Assembly (NCBI RefSeq): GCF_023146395.1
Contig: NZ_JAGLCD010000004.1
Span: 62,001-126,000 of the forward strand
Source of the DNA: Aeromicrobium sp.
Lineage (GTDB): Bacteria > Actinomycetota > Actinomycetes > Propionibacteriales > Nocardioidaceae
Reading direction: 5' to 3'
Length of the DNA stretch: 64,000 nucleotides
Position numbers and translations under genes: made by a program
Part shown: piece by piece, positions 10,565 through 22,364 of the stretch
Layout of the letters: the number at the start of each line of letters is the position of its first letter
Numbering within the stretch: position 1 is the first letter of the stretch
The notes under the pieces: model-generated
The model's input: the letters and a program-made list of their open reading frames with translations, nothing else
Databases searched by the model: none
What the model was told of the DNA's origin: nothing

Positions 10565-10584
10565 TCAGATGTCGTAGTACAGCT
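10565..10584 (-). repeat. Left attachment-site repeat (stranded glnA tail)
   Basis: A 20-bp segment identical to 15455-15474. On the minus strand it reads as the codons for LYYDI plus stop, the C-terminus of glutamine synthetase. The flanking bases on both sides differ between the two copies, so the match is exactly 20 bp. Confidence 0.8.
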
Positions 10585-10797
10585 GTTCCCTTACTGCACT
10601 GTCGCGCTCACCTGCAGGGATGTCCGCCCGTGCTGTCAGCCGGCGCACCGGGGGCGCACGGGATCCTGAGTGTTGCCCTCCGCGACAGCTCGAGCGGGCG
10701 TCCAGGCTGTGAACATCTTCGCGTCGGGGCGGCCACCCGACCGGCTCGGTCCTGACACCCTGAACGGCGTCGAACACCGGTGCGGGGGTGGGGCGCT

Positions 10798-10830: not shown

Positions 10831-12045
10831 ATGGGGAAGTCTGCGTCGGAGATGTCAATCGGGGACCGTCTTCTAGCGATGAATCACGCGTTTCTTCCCT
10901 CGGCCCCCGTGCATCGACAGGAGTTGCTGTCTGGACGCCAGGAGAAGCTGTTCTCGCTGCTCGAGACCTCTCAGACCCCCGGGGGCCACGCAGCCATCTT
11001 CGGTGAGCGGGGAGTTGGCAAGACAAGCGTCGCAGCGGTCTTTGAAACCGATCTGAGGGAGCGCGGCGTCCGCGCGATCCGGATCAACTGCAGTTCGCTC
11101 AGTAGCTTTCGTAGCCTTATCGAAGACGTGGCGACGGAATGGATTTCGCACTCTCCTGAAGACATCGCGGCTGAGCATTTGCCGCATCTTCTTGGCGGCA
11201 ACTTCGGGCAGGCTGACATTGTGCGCACGCTTGACGGCATCGCCAAGGTAGTGCCCTCCGTCATCATCCTCGACGAGTTTGACGTTGTCGCAGATGCAGG
11301 CGTGGGCGAGGATTTCGCGAACCTCATGAAGGCACTGGCAGACAAGCAGGTGGACAGCCATTTGGTGGTGGTCGGTGTCGCCGAAGATGTCGATGCGATT
11401 TTGAAGGGCCATGCCTCCATCGCTAGGGGTTTGAGTCAAGTTCCGATGCCGCGCCTGGAACCGGAAGAGCTCGCCGCGATTCTTCGGAACGGGTTCGGCG
11501 AACTGTCGATGTCGATTCCTGAAGCTCTCGAGCTGCGGGTCATCCGTCTCTCACAGGGTCTTCCCCACTACACGCATCTGCTAGGTAAAGAGTTGGCTCG
11601 CCGGTCCATCTTGGCGGAGCGTGACGAAGTCATCGCGGACGATTGGCCCGCTGCGCTCGAAGGGGCGCTGGAAAAGGCGGAGCAGCAAATCGTTGACCTT
11701 TACGGCGACGCAACTACGACGGCGAAGCCCAGCATGTTCCCGGACCTCCTGCTGGCCTGCGCGCTTGCAAAAAAGGACCAGCAAGGATTCTTCCGCCCGG
11801 CCGACGTGCATGGACCGTTGAATAAGGTGAGCGGCAAGACCTACGCTATGGCGGCGTTCACGGGCAATCTTGCGAGCTTGTCGGCTGCCGATCGCGGTCC
11901 TGCTCTTCAGCAGCGAGAGTTCGCGGATCGTCGAAAGCGGTACCGCTTCGCGAATCCACTCCTTCAACCGTACGTTCTGCTCAAAGCGGTATCCGACGGC
12001 ACCTTGGACTACCACGAGATCGACGACGATGAAATCTGGTCGTAG
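10831..12045 (+). CDS. ORC1/CDC6-like AAA+ ATPase of the integrated element
   Basis: A 404-residue P-loop ATPase. Walker A is GERGVGKTS (about residues 57-65), Walker B is VIILDEFD (about 142-149), and GLPHYTHLLGKELARR has the position of a sensor-2/lid helix. The region after residue 290 may hold a winged-helix domain. The architecture resembles ORC1/CDC6- or TniB-like NTPases used by mobile and defence modules. It contains lower-GC codons than the chromosome. A separate promoter-like hexamer precedes the next gene, so the two may not be strictly one operon, but they sit 114 bases apart on the same strand. Function is unknown; it may be a regulator or loader for the OLD-like protein. Confidence 0.75.
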   Translation: MGKSASEMSIGDRLLAMNHAFLPSAPVHRQELLSGRQEKLFSLLETSQTPGGHAAIFGERGVGKTSVAAVFETDLRERGVRAIRINCSSLSSFRSLIEDVATEWISHSPEDIAAEHLPHLLGGNFGQADIVRTLDGIAKVVPSVIILDEFDVVADAGVGEDFANLMKALADKQVDSHLVVVGVAEDVDAILKGHASIARGLSQVPMPRLEPEELAAILRNGFGELSMSIPEALELRVIRLSQGLPHYTHLLGKELARRSILAERDEVIADDWPAALEGALEKAEQQIVDLYGDATTTAKPSMFPDLLLACALAKKDQQGFFRPADVHGPLNKVSGKTYAMAAFTGNLASLSAADRGPALQQREFADRRKRYRFANPLLQPYVLLKAVSDGTLDYHEIDDDEIWS

Positions 12046-12159
12046 ACGTGCGTCGTGACTCGCAGGCATGCCGTGCTGAGGGTGCGCGTCGTGTAACACA
12101 GCACCCGCAAACTGCGGGAGCCTAGATCTCTGACGGCTTCAGCGCCCTACGATGAGCAC

Positions 12160-13929
12160 GTGTCCGCGCCCTTCAGAATCACTCGCTTGAACTTCAACGG
12201 TGGCGAGAGCGTCGACACGGGTGACGCGGATGTCATCGTGCTTGTTGGGCCGAACAACACCGGCAAGTCCCGCACGTTAGTTGAACTCCAACAGTGGTTG
12301 TCGCTCGAGCACTACGTGGAGCCGCCCGCTAACGCATTCTTCGTCCTTGACGAGCCAGGGGTTGAGCAACTCCTAGACGGTTCCCAAACACGAGATTGGT
12401 TGCTCGAGAGGCGCTACTCATGGGTGAATGATCACGACCATGTGGCGAGATTCCGGACGATCAACTCCGGCGAGCAGACCGTCGAGTCCGTGGCGCACAG
12501 CTGGCCGCCAGCTGAACGCTCGTCGAGGTTGGGCAGTCTCGGCAGCCATCTTGTGCGCGGCCTTTGGTGCGGGGAACGACTCCAACACCTCGGCGCGCCA
12601 AATCGACTCGACCATGACGGGCACCCCGATCATCCAGTTCATTGGCTAGTCCGAGACAAGGCACTTCTACAGGCTTTTGATAGTGCAATCTGGACGGCAT
12701 TCGGGATGCACGTGATTGTCGACGCCTGGGGCACGTCGATCCTCCTGCGCGTCAGTCGCAATCAGACGCAGTCGGATTTCGTCGGCACCTCCGAAGATGG
12801 CCTGCCCGACGCGGACCTCGTGCGAAGGCTTCGACAGCTGCCGACCCTCGAATCGCAAAGCGATGGCGTACGTAGCTTCGCAGGCATGGTCCTTACTCTT
12901 TTGACGGCGCAGTTTCCAACAGTCCTTCTTGACGAGCCCGAGGCATTTCTCCACCCGCCACAAGCTCGCTTGCTCGGTCGAAGCCTTGCCGAGTTCCAAC
13001 GTGATGGGCAGCTGCTGGTCGCCACTCACAGTTTGGATGTCCTGCTCGGACTAGTTGAGTCCCGGCCAGAGAAGGTCCTTATCGTGCGACTCACTCGTGA
13101 CGGCGAGCGAACCTCATGCAGGACCCTGCCCCCAGATCAACTTGCGGGTCTGTGGCGTGATCCGTTGCTGAGGTTCTCAAGAGCCCTTGACGGTCTCTTT
13201 CACGACGGTGTCGTCGTCTGCGAAGGCGATACTGACTCACAGTTCTACAGCGCCATTGCTGCCAGAGCTGATCCCGACGCCACGCCTACTCCGGGCCGGC
13301 ATGTGATGTTCACTTACGCCGGAAGCAAACACCGGATTCCGCTGATTGTTCGGGCGCTCCGTGCTCTCGACGTTCCGGTTCGAGCAGCTGTCGATTTTGA
13401 CATTCTCAGTAGTGAGAGCGAACTACGGACGCTTGTCGAGGCCACTGGATCGGGCATGACTGGTGAGATGAGTTCGGACCTGAAGTTGGTGAACTCTCAC
13501 ATTCGAGGTGGCGCGGTGGCTCCGAAGGTCGGCCCAGTCGCGGACGCTATTGAAGAGGCGCTCAGCGGCTCAAGGGGGCGCGAACTCGATGCCAGCGACG
13601 TGAGAGGGATCAGGCAGATAATCGAGCCGCCGACTGGTTGGCGAGATGCAAAACGTCGGGGACTCGCTGCAGTTCCGCCAGCAGAGGCAACTGTGGCGGC
13701 AAAACGGTTGCTCGCGACACTGCGAGCGGCCGGGATCTTCGTCGTCCCAAGCGGCGAAGTTGAATCCTTCGTCCCCGAAGTAGGCGGCAAGGGCCCCCGC
13801 TGGGTCGTGCAGGTAGTCGAGGAAGGACATCTGGACGCTGCGGATGAAGCCACAAAGTTCGTGGGCGAGATCCTGGCGTCGATTCCGAACGGCCGTTCCG
13901 AGATCGATCACGAGCAACCAAGTCGCTAG
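12160..13929 (+). CDS. OLD-like ATPase with C-terminal TOPRIM nuclease domain
   Basis: A 589-residue protein. The N-terminal half is an ABC-type ATPase: Walker A GPNNTGKS (about residues 31-38), signature-like SDGVRSFAG, Walker B TVLLDEPEAFLHP (about 253-265) and the H-loop ATHSLD. The C-terminal half looks like a TOPRIM domain: VVVCEGDTDSQFY (Glu near 351) and AAVDFDIL (DxD near 411). This is the layout of OLD-family and fused PARIS-like anti-phage effectors, which cut DNA or RNA when triggered. The GTG start lies 6 bases after TACGAT (12148-12153), suggesting a leaderless mRNA. The subfamily is not recognised, so a defence role is inference. Confidence 0.78.
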   Translation: MSAPFRITRLNFNGGESVDTGDADVIVLVGPNNTGKSRTLVELQQWLSLEHYVEPPANAFFVLDEPGVEQLLDGSQTRDWLLERRYSWVNDHDHVARFRTINSGEQTVESVAHSWPPAERSSRLGSLGSHLVRGLWCGERLQHLGAPNRLDHDGHPDHPVHWLVRDKALLQAFDSAIWTAFGMHVIVDAWGTSILLRVSRNQTQSDFVGTSEDGLPDADLVRRLRQLPTLESQSDGVRSFAGMVLTLLTAQFPTVLLDEPEAFLHPPQARLLGRSLAEFQRDGQLLVATHSLDVLLGLVESRPEKVLIVRLTRDGERTSCRTLPPDQLAGLWRDPLLRFSRALDGLFHDGVVVCEGDTDSQFYSAIAARADPDATPTPGRHVMFTYAGSKHRIPLIVRALRALDVPVRAAVDFDILSSESELRTLVEATGSGMTGEMSSDLKLVNSHIRGGAVAPKVGPVADAIEEALSGSRGRELDASDVRGIRQIIEPPTGWRDAKRRGLAAVPPAEATVAAKRLLATLRAAGIFVVPSGEVESFVPEVGGKGPRWVVQVVEEGHLDAADEATKFVGEILASIPNGRSEIDHEQPSR

Positions 13930-13938
13930 GGTGAGACT

Positions 13939-14313
13939 ATGAGTGACTTTCGATCTGACCGAATGCCATCAGCCGAGGGGCACGGCATCGCGAGGCAGGC
14001 ATGGGAGTCCTACGAGCGCCGGGCTCACAAGATCCTCGATCCTGGTGTGCGGGTCCTATTCGGGAGCTATGCCGCGAACAAGGTCGCTGACCTGATCGGA
14101 TTTGCAGTGCTGTGGCGGCTCGAAGGCGGGTTCGAGGGCCTCGAAAAACTCGGCATGAGTCGAGCCTCCATCTATCGGAAGATCGCGGCTTGTCGGAAGT
14201 ACTTGAAGATGCACCCCGACGAGTTTGAGCTCCCTGGCGTCACGATCGACTTCGAGGCGTACCGGGACCATGTCGAGTCGATGAGGGCGAAACCTACGCC
14301 TGCCAACGACTGA
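13939..14313 (+). CDS. Small helix-turn-helix protein of the integrated element
   Basis: A 124-residue protein. FEGLEKLGMSRASIYRKIAA is a good helix-turn-helix; the RKYLKMHPDEFELPG segment that follows resembles a C-terminal motif I associate with small regulators of actinobacterial integrative elements. No catalytic domain is seen. The ATG at 13939 is 6 bases after TAGGGT (13927-13932), again a leaderless pattern, and overlaps nothing. It could control the two upstream ATPase genes or excision functions now lost. Confidence 0.6.
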   Translation: MSDFRSDRMPSAEGHGIARQAWESYERRAHKILDPGVRVLFGSYAANKVADLIGFAVLWRLEGGFEGLEKLGMSRASIYRKIAACRKYLKMHPDEFELPGVTIDFEAYRDHVESMRAKPTPAND

Positions 14314-14352
14314 AGTCGCAAAACGTAGACAACCTACGAGCGAGTCGCTAGC

Positions 14353-14368
14353 GTCTCAATTGTGAGAC
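14353..14368. promoter_or_regulatory. Inverted repeat upstream of a truncated frame
   Basis: GTCTCA (14353-14358) and TGAGAC (14363-14368) form a perfect inverted repeat around a 4-base centre. The right arm, GTGAGACT, also occurs at the start of the HTH gene (13931-13938), where AGTCGCTAG again stands just before. The shared text suggests a common operator for the two transcription starts. Confidence 0.4.
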
Positions 14369-14412
14369 TTAATGCGTTCGTGGAGTTGGCGTCCGGAGTG
14401 GACTCCTTGTGA
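14362..14412 (+). pseudogene. N-terminal stub of a gene cut by the IS3 insertion
   Basis: A GTG codon at 14362 lies 7 bases after TAGCGT (14349-14354), the same leaderless arrangement as the preceding gene. It opens the frame VRLNAFVELASGVDSL, which stops at the TGA at 14410. That TGA is the first three bases of the putative IS left end. The frame is best read as the first 16 codons of a fourth element gene whose remainder was displaced by the insertion and later deletion. Identity is unknown. Confidence 0.35.
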
Positions 14413-14477
14413 CTGCTGCACCGATAGGTGACATCTGATCTGTGGTGTCGAGAGGTGCCGCTGGAAGGATGTGGACC

Positions 14478-14786
14478 ATGCCCAAGCCCTATCCCCGCGA
14501 GTTCCGTGAGGACGTCGTCCGGGTTGCTCGTGGTCGTGAGCCCGGGACTCGTCTGGCCGACATCGCTGCCGACTTCGGGATCAGCGAGACCTGCCTGTCG
14601 AACTGGATGCAGGCCGCTGACGTCGAGGACGGCCTCAAGCCCGGCGCCACCGCCGCCGACAACGCCGAGCTGCGTGAAGCGAAGAAACGAATCCGCCTGT
14701 TGGGGCAGGAGAACGAGATCCTGCGCCGCGCGACGGCCTATCTGTCCCAGGCGAACCTGCCGGGAAAAGGCTCTTCCCACTCGTGA
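14478..14786 (+). CDS. IS3-family transposase OrfA
   Basis: A 102-residue DNA-binding subunit of an IS3-type transposase. The helix-turn-helix is YPREFREDVVRVARG ... TRLADIAADFGISETCLSNWMQ, and a leucine-zipper-like helix follows (AELREAKKRIRLLGQENEIL). This is the standard OrfA layout. GGAAGGA precedes the ATG by 7 bases. It overlaps the start of orfB by four bases; in intact relatives a programmed frameshift joins the two. Since orfB is broken, the protein has no active partner here. Confidence 0.85.
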   Translation: MPKPYPREFREDVVRVARGREPGTRLADIAADFGISETCLSNWMQAADVEDGLKPGATAADNAELREAKKRIRLLGQENEILRRATAYLSQANLPGKGSSHS

Positions 14787-14957
14787 GAGAGCTGGCCGGC
14801 GACGACGTCCCCGTCACGGTCAGCTGCCGGGTGCTCGGGTTGTGCCGTCAGCAGTACTACCGCTGGCGCGCCAACCCGATCACCGACTCCGAGTGGGACA
14901 ACGCCCACCTGTCCAACGCGATCCTCGCCGCTCATGACGAGGACCCCCAGTACGGGT
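14783..14957 (+). pseudogene. IS3-family transposase OrfB, truncated
   Basis: The N-terminal 58 or so residues of an IS3 OrfB integrase: LCRQQYYRWRANP and ILAAHDEDPQYG are typical. In family members the sequence after DP(Q/E)xG continues with a YRFIADEL-like segment, but here it switches to unrelated residues near 14957. The whole DDE catalytic domain (about 230 residues) is absent. The exact junction is uncertain by a few bases. Confidence 0.8.
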
Positions 14958-15351
14958 CGGAGTCGTTCGCCCACAGCATGAGCGCGGTGTCGATGCCGAT
15001 GGTGTCGAGTCGAGCGGCGAAGTTCTGGAGGACTCGATCCGCTTCTTCGCGGTTCGCTGTGACGCAGACGATGCCCACGCTGGCTCCTGGCCGGGCGTAG
15101 CGGCCGAGAGGGGAGCGGATGGCCTCCCAGGCCAAGTCGTGGTCTCGCGGAGTGGTCGGAAGGCCGATGCGAGCGATGGGTAGGTCGGCGCTCATCGGCA
15201 CGAACACGACCGACTCCTCGGGCTTGAACCCGAGCAGGTGGGGGAGTGCCGCAGTCAGCTCGTCGGGGGAGTGAGCGGAGAGCCTCGTGCCCCCGAGGTG
15301 AGCCGCCCGGACCTGCGATGTCCGCCGGTTACGTTGACACACTGGTGACAC
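14958..15351 (-). pseudogene. DUF4192-family gene, truncated at the IS3 junction
   Basis: The minus strand encodes the N-terminal part of a DUF4192 protein: SPDELTAALPHLLGFKPEES, VVFVPMSADLPIARIGLPTTP and VGIVCVTANREEADRVL are typical of the family, whose function is unknown. The frame runs into the IS3 remnant near 14957, so the C-terminal part is lost. The start is uncertain; GTG codons at 15351 and 15342 are possible. It lies inside the repeat-bounded element, so it was either cargo or was brought in by an IS-mediated deletion. Confidence 0.7.
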
Positions 15352-15358
15352 ACGCCAA

Positions 15359-15422
15359 CGAAAACGGCGGCTGACTCTGGAAGACGTCGGACGACGTCTC
15401 CGCAGGTCAGCCGCCGTTTTCG
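15359..15422. terminator. Long hairpin with T-runs, bidirectional terminator
   Basis: CGAAAACGGCGGCTGAC (15359-15375) pairs perfectly with its complement at 15406-15422, and AGACGTC/GACGTCT forms an inner stem. Each strand ends the stem in a TTTT run. It lies 32 bases past the glnA stop and so replaces the original terminator left at 10508-10547. It also insulates the DUF4192 remnant. Confidence 0.85.
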
Positions 15423-15454
15423 GCAACTAGCGACAGAGGGTGAAAACCCTCAGA

Positions 15455-15474
15455 TCAGATGTCGTAGTACAGCT
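15455..15474 (-). repeat. Right attachment-site repeat (inside intact glnA)
   Basis: The last 20 bases of glnA, identical to 10565-10584. Recombination here keeps the glnA reading frame complete, as usual for elements that use a gene's 3' end. Confidence 0.8.
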
Positions 15475-16876
15475 CGAACTCGTGCGGGTGCGGCCGCAGC
15501 TGCACCGGGAGGATCTCCTCGGTGCGCTTGTAGTCGATCCACGTCTCGATCAGGTCGGGGGTGAAGACACCGCCGGCCGTCAGGAACTCGTGGTCCTGCT
15601 CGAGGTTGTCGAGCACCGCGTTGAGCGAGGTCGGGACCATGTCGATGGCCTCGTACTCCTCGGCGGGGAGCTCGTAGATGTTCTTGTCGATCGGGGCCGC
15701 CGGCTCGATCTTGTTCTTGATGCCGTCCAGGCCGGCGAGCAGCAGCGCCGAGAACGCCAGGTACGGGTTGCTCGACGGATCGGGGCAACGGAACTCGATG
15801 CGCTTGGCCTTCGGGTTCGAGCCGGTGATCGGGATGCGGACACAGGCCGAGCGGTTGCGGGCCGAGTACACGAGCGCGATCGGGGCCTCGAAGCCCGGGA
15901 CCAGGCGGTGGTAGGAGTTGACCGAGGGGTTCGTGAACGCCAGCAGGCTCGGGGCGTGCTTCAGGATGCCGCCGATGTAGTAGCGGGCGGTGTCCGAGAG
16001 TCCGCCGTAGCCGGCCTCGTCGTAGAACAGCGGCTCGCCGTTGTTCCAGATCGACTGGTGCACGTGCATGCCCGAGCCGTTGTCGCCGAAGATCGGCTTC
16101 GGCATGAAGGTGGCCGTCTTGTCGTTCGCCCACGCCGTGTTGCGCACGATGTACTTGAACTTCATGACGTCGTCGGCGGCCTTGAGCAGCGTGTCGAACT
16201 TGTAGTTGATCTCCGCCTGGCCCGACGTGCCGACCTCGTGGTGACCGCGCTCGAGCACCAGGCCCGCCTCGGCGAGGTTGCTCATCATGTCGTTGCGCAG
16301 GTCGGCCGTTTTGTCGGTCGGCGCGACGGGGAAGTAGCCGCCCTTGTAGCGGACCTTGTAGCCACGGTTGTCGGCGATGTCGTCGCCGGTGGACCAGGCG
16401 GCCTCGGCCGAGGTGATCTCGTAGAACGACTTGTTGGCGCTCGTGCCGTAGGCGACGCGGTCGAAGATGTAGAACTCGGCCTCGGGGGCGAAGAAGGCGG
16501 TGTCGCCGATGCCCGTCGTGGCCAGGTACGCCTCGGCCTTGCGGGCCACGTTGCGCGGGTCGCGCGAGTAGGCCTCACCCGTGATCGGGTCGTGGACGAA
16601 GAAGTCCATCGCGATCGTCTTGCGGCGCTTGAACGGGTCGACGTACGCCGTGCCGAAGTCGGGGAACAGGACCATGTCGGACTGGTCGATGCTCTGGAAG
16701 CCGCGGATCGACGAACCGTCGAAGGCGACGCCGTTCTCGGCAGCGTCGGCGTCGAACGTCCACGCCGGCAGGGTCACCTGCTGCTGGATGCCGGGAAGAT
16801 CGGTGAATCGGACGTCGAGGTACTCGACGCCCTCGTCCTTGACGAACTTGAAGAACTCGTCGGCATTGCCGAACAT
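15455..16876 (-). CDS. glnA: Glutamine synthetase, type I
   Basis: The 473-residue ATP-dependent enzyme that makes glutamine from glutamate and ammonia, acting as a cytoplasmic dodecamer. Recognisable parts are [11 protein letters not shown] near the N-terminus, [47 protein letters not shown], and the adenylylation-loop sequence [10 protein letters not shown] whose tyrosine is the GlnE target in beta-subtype enzymes. ATG 16876 is preceded by GAGGAGG, so the longer frame to 16984 is not used. The promoter carries two GlnR-type boxes. The last 20 bases serve as the attachment site of the adjoining element. Confidence 0.97.
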
Positions 16877-16952
16877 TGGGCCTCCTCGGCCGCGCAGCGG
16901 CACAGGTAGTCGGGTTTCCACGTCACAGGCGCGGGGGCCTGCGTCGCCCCTG

Positions 16953-17006
16953 AATGTAGGCGGAGGCAGTTTCCCGACCGTCAACGAATTGTTTCGGCCA
17001 AGTTAC
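16953..17006 (-). promoter_or_regulatory. glnA promoter with paired GlnR boxes
   Basis: On the minus strand, GTAAC-n6-GAAAC (17006-16991) is followed after 6 bases by TTGAC-n6-GAAAC (16984-16969). This is the consensus gTnAC-n6-GaAAC repeated at the 22-bp period known for GlnR sites in streptomycetes. A TACATT hexamer (16958-16953) downstream could be the -10, giving a leader of roughly 70 bases before the glnA ATG. Confidence 0.8.
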
Positions 17007-19662: not shown

Positions 19663-20703
19663 ATGAAGCCGCTTCGTCCCGCCGTGACCCGCCCGATCGC
19701 CGTTCTCGGCCTGACCTGCGTCGTGCTGCTCGCACCCGTCCCCGCGCACGCCGACGTGATCGACGGGACTCCCGGGGATGACGTCCTGACCGGCACCCCC
19801 GGCGACGACACCATCAGTGCCGGCGACGGTGACGACGAGGTCGACGGCCGTGCCGGTGACGACATCCTGGTCGGTGGTGCTGGCGATGACGTGCTGTTCG
19901 GCGGCGACGGCAGCGACGAGGTCGACGGCGGCGATGGCGACGACTACCTCAGCGGCGGCGAGCTCGACGACCAGCTCGACGGTGGCGCTGGCGCGGACGA
20001 GCTCTACGGCGGCGACGGCAGTGACTTTCTCGTCGGCAGGGATGGTGACGACTACCTCAGTGGCGGCGACGGCGATGACTACCTCAGTGGCGGCGACGGC
20101 GATGACTACCTCAGTGGCGGCGACGGTGACGATCTCCTGTGCGGTGGCAGCGGGGTCGACGTCCTCTTCGGTGGGTCCGGGTCCGACCTGGCCTGTGCGG
20201 TCGACGACGTGGCAGTGGCTCCGTTGGACACGCCGACCGTGGTCGACGTGAGGGCCAACGACGAGCAGCTGAGTGACGAGGCCGACGAGACCGATCCAGT
20301 GCGCTACCAGATCGTGGGCGTGCCCGCGGGCGTGACGGCGACGATCGACGAGCTGACGGGGCTGGTCGCCTTCGAGATCACCGATCCGACGTTCACGAGC
20401 GGTGACCTGGTGTACCTGGTCAGCCGGCTGACCGACACCGGCACGATCGCGTCCACGGCGTTCTTGACGATCACGTTGACGGCCGACGAGGGCGGGGTGC
20501 CAGCCACGCCCGACCAGGATGAGGACCGTGGCGTGGTGTTGGCCGCCTCGCCGGTCCTCCCGACGTCCGACGACAGCGACGTCGTGCTCCCGGAGACGGG
20601 CGCTCCGGAGGACCTCCAGGGCCTCGTGGCACTGGCGAGCGTCCTGATCCTGGCTGGTGGAGCGCTCGTGGCCGGCACGCGCCGTCGCCCCCACCGTGCC
20701 TGA
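19663..20703 (+). CDS. RTX-repeat, LPXTG-anchored surface protein 1
   Basis: A 346-residue secreted protein. A signal peptide (to about residue 30, cleaved after AHA) precedes some 15 nonapeptide repeats of the RTX type (GGxGxDxUx; for example GGDGDDYLS) at about 34-175, which fold as Ca2+-binding beta-rolls. A beta-domain follows ([11 protein letters not shown] ... [15 protein letters not shown]). The end is a sortase signal: LPETG at about 310, a hydrophobic segment and TRRRPHRA. It should be covalently wall-anchored. It shares operator, leader, signal peptide and C-terminal domain with the gene at 21306, so the two are paralogues. No sortase gene is in the window. Confidence 0.85.
20047..20127 (+). 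repeat. Three tandem 27-bp coding repeats in RTX gene 1
   Basis: Units 20047-20073, 20074-20100 and 20101-20127 encode (D)DYLSGGDG and differ at one or two bases only. Recent in-frame expansion of the RTX array is likely. Confidence 0.85.
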
Positions 20704-21305: not shown

Positions 21306-22364
21306 ATGAAACTGTCTCGTCCTGCCTTCTCACGCCTGGTCGCCGTTCTCGGCCTGATGTCCGTCGTGGTGCTCGCACCCTCTGGTGCCGATGCCGATGT
21401 CATCGAAGGGACCAGCGGTGACGACGTCCTCAGCGGAACTCCGGGCGACGACTCCGTCGGCGGCGGTGACGGCGACGACCTCCTCGACGGTGGCGCGGGC
21501 TACGACTACCTCGACGGTGGCGCGGGAGACGATCAGGTCCGTGGTGGTGAAGGAGACGACATCCTTCTCGGCCGTGACGGCGACGATGACCTCGACGGAG
21601 AGGGCGACAACGACGACCTGGTCGGCGGGCCCGGCGACGACGACCTCGACGGAGGTGACGGTGACGACTACCTCTACGCCGGCGACGGCAACGATCAGCT
21701 GTTCGGTGGTGACGGCGATGACCTCCTCAGCGGTGGAGACGGCGACGACGAGCTCCACGGAGACGACGGGAACGACCTGCTCTGCGGTGGCGGTGGGAAT
21801 GACCTGCTCCAGGGCGGCGCTGGCGCCGACCTGGCGTGCGCCGTGGACGACGCAGCTTCGGCGCCGGTGGGTGTCTCGACGGTGGTGGACGTGCGGGCCA
21901 ACGACGAGCAGCTCACTGATGAGGCCGATGAGGCCGATCCAGTGCGGTACTCGATCCTGGGTGTGCCGGCGGGCGTGACGGCCTCGATCGACGAGCTGAC
22001 GGGCCTGGTGACGTTCGAGATCACTGATCCGACATTCACGACTGGTGACCTGTTCTACGTGGTGAGCCGGCCGACCGGCACGGGCGCGATCGAGTCGACC
22101 GCTCTCCTGACGATCAGGCTCACCGCGGCTGAAGAGGAGGATGCGGACACGATGCCGGGAACGGTCGCGCCTGACGATGACGGATCCCGCGGCGCGGGCG
22201 TGGCCCAGGTCGCGTCACCTGCTGCTCTTGCCGCCGGCGACATCGGCGTGCTTCCCGCGACTGGGGCTCCCGAGGACCTCGTCGGTGTCCTGGTTCTGGG
22301 AGGTCTGCTGCTTGCTGGCGGCGCCCTCACGATCACGGTGGCACGCCGCGCTCAGCGCGGCTGA
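21306..22364 (+). CDS. RTX-repeat, LPXTG-anchored surface protein 2
   Basis: A 352-residue paralogue of the protein at 19663. It has a signal peptide (about 1-30), RTX nonapeptides at about 34-175 ([18 protein letters not shown] and others), the shared domain with [13 protein letters not shown] and [15 protein letters not shown], and a sorting signal LPATG near residue 316 with a hydrophobic helix and ARRAQRG tail. The repeats bind Ca2+ outside the cell, where they order the protein. The two paralogues differ mostly in the repeat array and in the low-complexity stalk before LPXTG. Role in adhesion or wall structure is inferred. Confidence 0.85.
   Translation: MKLSRPAFSRLVAVLGLMSVVVLAPSGADADVIEGTSGDDVLSGTPGDDSVGGGDGDDLLDGGAGYDYLDGGAGDDQVRGGEGDDILLGRDGDDDLDGEGDNDDLVGGPGDDDLDGGDGDDYLYAGDGNDQLFGGDGDDLLSGGDGDDELHGDDGNDLLCGGGGNDLLQGGAGADLACAVDDAASAPVGVSTVVDVRANDEQLTDEADEADPVRYSILGVPAGVTASIDELTGLVTFEITDPTFTTGDLFYVVSRPTGTGAIESTALLTIRLTAAEEEDADTMPGTVAPDDDGSRGAGVAQVASPAALAAGDIGVLPATGAPEDLVGVLVLGGLLLAGGALTITVARRAQRG

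Follow-up and report, generated by a model that had tools for sequence, protein, structure and literature searches.

We analysed a stretch of 64,000 nucleotides from Aeromicrobium sp. (hereafter the window), which belongs to an assembly of 2.82 Mb in 21 contigs with 83% completeness and carries three consecutive genes next to the 3' end of glnA. P0001 encodes an AAA+ ATPase, P0002 an OLD-type protein with an ATPase and a TOPRIM half, and P0003 a small helix-turn-helix (HTH) protein. Our reading, to which we assign a probability of about 0.68, is that P0001 and P0002 are candidate defence genes, apparently independent of each other, which make up the cargo in the remains of a small mobile element at the glnA site, and that P0003 is a housekeeping gene of that element. 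From this context, a defence role of the island is likely. The three open reading frames (ORFs) named by the initial annotation are all present, each on the + strand; the joint anti-phage system it proposed for them is not borne out. The features are as follows, where att denotes an attachment site.

10565..10584, no strand: left edge of the element, formed by a second, distal copy (att-like) of the 3' end of glnA, TCAGATGTCGTAGTACAGCT; exact 20-base direct repeat of 15455-15474
10831-12045, + strand: P0001, AAA+ ATPase, cargo gene 1, 404 amino acids (aa) counted from ATG
12148..12153, + strand: TACGAT box, possible leaderless promoter of P0002, 6 bases upstream of the GTG; weak
12160-13929, + strand: P0002, OLD-type ATPase-TOPRIM protein, cargo gene 2, 589 aa, GTG start
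13939-14313, + strand: P0003, element backbone gene for a small HTH protein, 124 aa
14362..14408, + strand: start of a Rep-like gene (about 47 bases), interrupted by the IS3-type insertion
14409..14975, + strand: IS3-type insertion remnant, ends approximate, with orfA (14442-14786) and a truncated orfB
15455..15474, no strand: glnA-proximal att copy, 3' end of glnA
15455-16984, - strand: glnA, named from the ORF translation

A longer P0001 frame is possible from a GTG at 10780. GGGGAG precedes the ATG at 10831, and the alignments of P0001 relatives begin around that point; this ATG is probably the start.

With regard to the question whether P0001 and P0002 form one system, we surveyed the surroundings of their relatives twice, first by tblastn at 1e-3 (195 loci) and second with profiles of both families on six-frame ORFs. 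The window's own loci (L001, L014, L196) and short duplicates (L002, L003, L015-L021) were set aside before counting. Both surveys find the two genes together only in the window's own loci, i.e., no P0001 relative lies within the fetched flanks of the 138 P0002 relatives (98 with 2 kb on both sides) and no P0002 relative within those of the 58 P0001 relatives (42 with 2 kb on both sides). The annotation of two Streptomyces plasmid loci with P0001 relatives shows no P0002-type partner either. In the seven sister stretches described below, the P0001 profile matches nothing and the P0002 profile only the PtuA of G825, weakly (22 bits). The initial annotation, which had joined an ORC-like ATPase and an OLD protein into one undescribed system, had itself named a lack of co-occurrence elsewhere as evidence to the contrary, and this lack is what the fetched flanks show. 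We thus reject a joint P0001-P0002 system, as no second pairing was found in relatives or sister stretches; judging from these sequence comparisons, the two most likely act independently.

A dedicated two- or three-gene anti-phage system, in which an ORC-like sensor, an OLD effector and an HTH regulator work together, could draw on the common strand, on gaps of 114 bases (P0001 to P0002) and 9 bases (P0002 to P0003), and on the shared low G+C, which is 0.58-0.63 across about 10.75-14.5 kb compared to 0.66-0.75 in the left and 0.65-0.72 in the right flank. Beside the 138 + 58 loci that lack the pair, the company of P0003 with Rep-like genes, integrase genes and other cargo speaks against this alternative, as does a possible, if weak, separate promoter ahead of P0002, and we give it hardly any weight. 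As to that promoter, P0002 may have its own leaderless transcript from the TACGAT box; TANNNT at spacings 5-7 precedes 0.9% of the window's ATG/GTG triplets (n=1915). The scan for sigma-70 promoters and terminators called no promoter and gave no signals above those of shuffled sequences, and the Rfam scan of the window returned zero matches.

That the genes sit within a mobile element had been proposed before, and the exact 20-base repeat of the glnA 3' end now names the insertion site. The distal copy lies 4890 bases from glnA's own, which gives an element of about 4.9 kb. In a comparison over 24 bases, 20 of the distal copy match the glnA end while the next best place reaches 15, and the first 15 att bases, TCAGATGTCGTAGTA, occur within the window only at 10565 and 15455. 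Among 40 oriented stretches (532 kb), this 15-mer was seen outside glnA only in the genomes G600, G603, G605 and G581 (one further place), and never on the other strand; it occurs once each in G695, G825 and G676, upstream of the P0003 relative.

On the other side of the cargo, window positions 13923-14408 align with G600 through P0003 into the start of rep with 81.5% identity, and the likeness ends at the IS3-type sequence. Therein, orfA matches HTH_Tnp_1 over cut-off; the next frame (105 aa) matches no family over cut-off and is presumably the IS3-type orfB. A Rep match was absent from the strain's own genome at 1e-10, and no integrase follows the rep remnant in the window. With rep cut by the IS3-type insertion and the integrase missing, the element has probably become fixed, i.e., lost its mobility. 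The cut rep and the missing integrase would also suit an island of passive debris, in which both cargo genes are dead passengers; the P0001 and P0002 frames are nevertheless open and of full length with conserved active sites, and we consider this very unlikely.

The reading as cargo of a glnA-site element gains from P0003, for which Pfam gives no family over cut-off. Its relatives were found in one other of 296 class genomes (G079) and in six others of 294 family genomes, i.e., in seven sisters; plasmid records gave no match and the viral scan was unproductive. Four of the seven (G600, G603, G695 and G825, the glnA of the latter two being named by translation) sit at the 3' end of glnA and carry an att-like repeat. 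G676 has the 15-mer and its contig ends inside the integrase; G575 and G079 are located elsewhere. The order in G600 and G603 is att copy, cargo, P0003 relative, Rep-like gene, tyrosine integrase and glnA, and in 6/7 sisters a Rep-like gene, belonging to one and the same family, and an integrase come after the P0003 relative (Reps 49-61% identical to that of G600; integrases 52-74%, 27% for G575). The seventh, G079, shows a REP_ORF2-G2P protein and a serine recombinase instead. The Rep label is weak, given that PF02486 (Rep_trans) scores 13.7 bits against a cut-off of 29.6 in one of four Reps scanned and that nothing matches in the other three. The rep match of G695 and G825 is split into two pieces in different frames, and in G695 (L290) an IS256-type transposase (by translation) interrupts the integrase, such that both copies look broken; G695 is thus a second case of a disabled backbone. 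The HTH protein had been suggested as the regulator of the defence genes. Because the companion genes of P0003 are Rep-like and integrase genes while the cargo varies, we reject this role.

The slot upstream of P0003 holds recognisable defence-type genes in 4/7 sisters. These are the Septu genes PtuA (6.3e-115) and PtuB (5.4e-59) as well as a type IV restriction endonuclease (mREase_IV, 3.8e-16) in G825, a GmrSD_N/NsnA-like gene in G695 (NsnA, 6e-42), a gene with SAD_SRA (1.8e-47) and HNH_2 (1.4e-08) Pfam matches in G603, and a SIR2 gene of the ThsA type in G079 (ThsA, 4.9e-25). From this comparison, the P0001-P0002 pair of the window is best read as two more cargo inserts of the slot. In G825, the type IV restriction-like gene and the Septu pair are stacked within positions 8594-13873 of L291 along with a 402 aa protein that lies further out and matches no family; whether this protein is inside or outside the element depends on the att candidate chosen.

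We also surveyed the genus for insertions at this site. The glnA query matched in 48/49 genomes, several of which show a second short copy kilobases away, and the glnA flank was fetched for 39 genomes. An integrase-like match lies at most 2.2 kb from the glnA stop in 7/39 (one of them a 91 aa piece). Copies of the glnA 3' end were found at 6.5 kb (L258, G576), 8.5 kb (L261, G584), 12.7 kb (L262, G605) and 24.4 kb (L263/L264, G581) from glnA, those of G584 and G576 with 2 mismatches in 20, and L262 and L263 have distant integrase matches near glnA (26-30% identity). On sequence grounds, these copies of G584, G605, G581 and G576 are further insertions at the glnA site.

Several observations weigh against our interpretation. 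Over 24 bases, G600 and G603 have imperfect att copies, with 17 and 18 matches compared to 16 and 17 for the next best places, and the argument for att depends on the first 15 bases, where both are exact. The right side of the window element is also irregular: between the IS3-type remnant and glnA, positions 14932-15454 hold an N-terminal DUF4192 fragment on the - strand and a terminator-like inverted repeat (15359-15422), which by eye resembles sequence that directly adjoins glnA in several relatives and, in G584, the distal att copy, and this stretch does not fit any simple right end of an element. Concerning the cargo, no PADLOC model matches the SRA-HNH gene of G603, the slot proteins of G600 and G676 are without family and of membrane type by eye, and no cargo was identified in G575, where only a large chromosomal-type ORF is present; given these last three sisters, the slot is not purely for defence. 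Finally, weak cross-matches were observed for the P0001 profile in L178 (6e-4) and L183 (1.4e-3) and for the P0002 profile in L204 (3e-4), and P0001 and P0002 could cooperate in the window strain.

Turning to the cargo genes themselves, P0002 matches AAA_21 (5.3e-14), AAA_15 and OLD-like_TOPRIM (7.4e-06; PF20469, 26.8 bits with a cut-off of 23.2) in Pfam, all over cut-off. Each motif listed in the initial annotation, i.e., GPNNTGKS, LLDEPEAFLHP, CEGDTDS and DFD, is located in P0002, and the OLD-like layout derived from them is supported. Within alignment A4 of the P0002 subfamily (45 sequences), G30, G35, K36, D258, E259 and P260 of the ATPase half as well as E355, D359, D412 and D414 of the TOPRIM half are invariant. 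The top PADLOC model is Old (2.3e-20), which matches 45/45 A4 members but covers only about a third of its profile in doing so; AriA, AriAB, NsnB and a GajA model likewise match 45/45. Among solved structures, the A4 profile finds 6p74 (TsOLD) first (3.1e-15) with AriA and GajA behind, and TsOLD is a class 1 OLD protein (PMC10568477). By sequence, the best label for P0002 is thus that of a standalone (class 1) OLD protein. It is 26-39% identical to 43/44 other A4 members and 55% to one; the closest relative among the matches listed is that of Actinomadura L022 (55%).

The scan of genome contigs gave at least 255 relatives of P0002 (best 80 of 255 kept), while phage records gave no match. No neighbouring family recurs in more than 9/124 representatives; by translation, recombinases, integrases and shared prophage genes were noticed. 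The two genes adjoining P0002 in the window encode neither a helicase nor a reverse transcriptase (RT), and no such partner recurs near its relatives, where no profile search was aimed at helicases or RTs; L023 has a helicase-like ORF 1.7 kb upstream. In nine loci (L144, L146, L148-L152, L156, L090) a tyrosine integrase-like ORF (by translation) on the same strand immediately precedes the P0002 relative. Eight of the nine have prophage genes in common, and the placement is unlike that of P2 old.

Instead of defence, P0002 might serve in DNA repair or another cell process, as the archaeal OLD-type protein Cran1 is reported to act in cell-cycle progression (PMC12796447). This is quite unlikely given its rare and patchy occurrence (3/246 class genomes with its own included, i.e., two others), its 53 kept loci on viral contigs, all of which pass the A2 profile at 1e-10 while the last 11 are weak partial tblastn matches, and the defence-type genes that occupy its slot in the sisters.

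P0001 matches AAA_16 in Pfam (2.5e-12, over the curated cut-off). Among 27 sequences of its family, G58-G61, G63, K64, S66, D148, E149 and R199 are invariant; 93% have T65, and 96% share a G-x-P motif at 243-245. We take this motif to be typical of STAND-type ATPases and assume the STAND/ORC superclade of AAA+ as the clade label. The C-terminus probably folds into a winged helix, as far as can be told from sequence. The label ORC1/CDC6-like holds only as a distant likeness, since TIGR02928 scores 36.2 bits, far under its cut-off of 181.3, and we therefore dropped an ORC1/Cdc6 initiator as a candidate. The nSTAND1 NTPase family of Pfam also stays under its cut-off (21.8 vs. 27.1 bits); three E. 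coli relatives are labelled nSTAND1 NTPase in RefSeq. P0001 also matches phrog_6841 (8.3e-47), of function unknown. Compared to solved structures, the P0001 sequence has no relative, and the family profile finds generic AAA+ chains (ClpC, RuvB, p97) with archaeal Cdc6 lower (6e-4).

Relatives of P0001 were found in 8/296 phylum genomes (own included), 15 plasmid records, three phage records (two phages) and 41 viral loci, and DNA similar to P0001 in 9/5426 E. coli genomes; a viral scan with P0001 as sole query was unproductive. Three of the nine E. coli places and five of the 15 plasmid matches were opened, followed later by two more Streptomyces plasmid loci (the plasmid matches H5, H7, H12 and H14-H22 are outside the opened set). 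In a P2-like Salmonella phage-plasmid and in an E. coli P2-like prophage, the P0001 relative has the replication gene on one side and the portal gene on the other. This is the P2 interval between A and Q, which is described as a defence hotspot (PMC9122126). In two E. coli lambdoid prophages it is flanked by a Q-type antiterminator and a holin, and in Gordonia phage Cashline it separates tail genes from the integrase. Mycobacteriophage Kevin1 (a name also printed in PMC10700106) has it in a variable region between lysis genes and the integrase, where gene 30 is described as an AAA-ATPase orpham that may inform immunity (PMC6544188).

With regard to neighbours of P0001 relatives, the top family occurs in at most 3/45 representatives (34 of them with 2 kb on each side). 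On viral contigs, 80 neighbouring ORFs fall into scattered phage families, none of which is found in more than two of the 20 representatives (out of 30) that have at least 2.5 kb on both sides, with rough gene calling. In L102, L104 and L105 (viral contigs) a gene with MCTNYRP, which we take to be SRAP-like, follows the P0001 relative; it is a joint-top neighbour family, yet at 3/45. Because P0001 relatives stand alone at accessory positions of prophages without a recurrent neighbour family, we read P0001 as a one-gene accessory function, i.e., its sequence relatives suggest that it most likely belongs to a single-gene ATPase family carried singly by prophages at accessory-gene positions.

An ATPase for the maintenance of a plasmid or element (replication or partition) with its own DNA target would be compatible with the distant ORC1/Cdc6 likeness and with the 15 plasmid records. 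The solitary accessory-gene positions in prophages count against it, P2-like prophages already have an annotated replication gene beside the P0001 relative, and the P0001 profile remains empty in all seven sister stretches; we thus consider maintenance unlikely.

How the island may have arisen and acted can be sketched for the favoured reading, i.e., cargo genes in a glnA-site element. A small integrative element of 4.9 kb with a backbone of P0003, a Rep-like gene and a tyrosine integrase would have inserted at the glnA 3' end, its cargo slot upstream of P0003 being exchanged among genomes and often filled with defence-type genes. An IS3-type insertion would then have cut rep, the integrase would have been lost and the element become fixed. 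By analogy to OLD proteins, the ABC-type ATPase half of P0002 may sense or bind phage-altered DNA or a nucleotide state, and the TOPRIM half may cut nucleic acid with two metal ions, gated by the ATPase. Both halves of P2 Old are required to kill recBC cells (PMC10568477); on the other hand, the TOPRIM domain of E. coli ybjD is reported to be dispensable (PMC13261556), and cleavage is therefore not certain as the working step of P0002. P0001, with its AAA+ core and probable C-terminal winged helix, would most likely block superinfecting phages via ATP-dependent sensing or DNA binding, with either a stop of phage replication or a shutdown of the cell as outcome.

Elsewhere in the window, 19663-20703 and 21306-22364 encode adjacent secreted proteins with GGDGDD-type repeats that are similar at both ends, i.e., a tandem paralogue pair; their look is presumably RTX-like.

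The architecture of the island is ordinary, namely solo cargo in a defence slot. Its novel parts are an unnamed ATPase family borne by prophages and a carrier family that targets glnA. Within the open-licence literature and using strict term sets, we met neither of the two, i.e., no report of an ORC/AAA one-gene system like P0001 and no glnA-targeting element of such kind. A bolder proposal, whose odds we place slightly below even, is that P0001 represents, in actinomycetes, a broad and unnamed family of ATPases that act against phages as single genes (about 400 aa, AAA+ STAND/ORC core, probable C-terminal winged helix, no separate effector domain) and that were acquired independently by unrelated temperate phages and small integrative elements at their defence hotspots. 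In this proposal, the HTH-Rep-Int elements that target glnA would likewise constitute a new family, that of minimal actinomycete defence carriers. As P0001 has relatives in E. coli prophages and a cultured mycobacteriophage, its function is quickly testable. Given the fixed backbone and the exchangeable slot, the interval from the distal glnA att copy to the P0003 relative can be searched for more defence genes. Whether class 1 OLD proteins defend broadly alone is a question raised in review (PMC10568477), for which the P0002 relatives are candidates.

Of the systems described so far, P0002 comes closest to the class 1 OLD proteins, i.e., P2 Old and the OLD protein of T. scotoductus (6P74), which are likewise single genes with an ABC-type ATPase and a TOPRIM domain that are often on mobile elements. 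P0002 differs in that it adjoins another candidate defence gene, whereas class 1 genes are reported in review not to occur close to other candidate defence genes (PMC10568477). GajA of Gabija has the same two halves; as P0002 lacks an adjoining UvrD-type partner or GajB helicase, and scores 41.2 bits for GajA compared to 70.9 for Old, Gabija is ruled out. AriA/AriB of PARIS share the ABC-type ATPase and a TOPRIM-type nuclease. DUF4435 (PF14491) is unreported at E 0.1 and the TOPRIM half of P0002 belongs to the OLD-like family PF20469 instead, which rules out a PARIS fusion and with it the earlier description as fused PARIS-like. A retron with an OLD effector is ruled out by the lack of an adjoining RT and of any Rfam match in the window.

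For P0001, the PADLOC candidate PDC-S59 and mad8 of MADS are AAA+ ATPases with weak similarity to 14/27 and 19/27 family members, respectively (E <= 0.001). For P0001 itself, both match short stretches, with 12.8 bits for PDC-S59 (up to 28.6 bits among the E. coli relatives scanned, scored without PADLOC's own cut-offs) and 20.8 bits for mad8, and no MADS gene set was noticed beside P0001. The name PDC-S59 was not met in the open-licence literature, where a paper bearing that name alone would have escaped the search.

Finally, the carrier itself resembles two kinds of mobile elements. Actinomycete integrative and conjugative elements (AICEs, pSAM2 type) are also Rep and integrase elements, with the sisters sharing att repeats and a site-specific integrase. 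AICEs have RepSA, RepAM or Prim-Pol together with an FtsK-type Tra (PMC3218068), whereas the Rep here is of no clear family, the target is glnA, the window element is without integrase, and no Tra was found in three of five G600 ORFs scanned (a 94 aa ORF being unscanned) or in the window's P0003, with other sisters scanned in part. The backbone in P2/P4 hotspots is that of a phage, whereas here it is HTH-Rep-Int, and the sister stretches read show no phage structural gene; what both have in common is a variable defence slot in a mobile backbone (PMC9122126).

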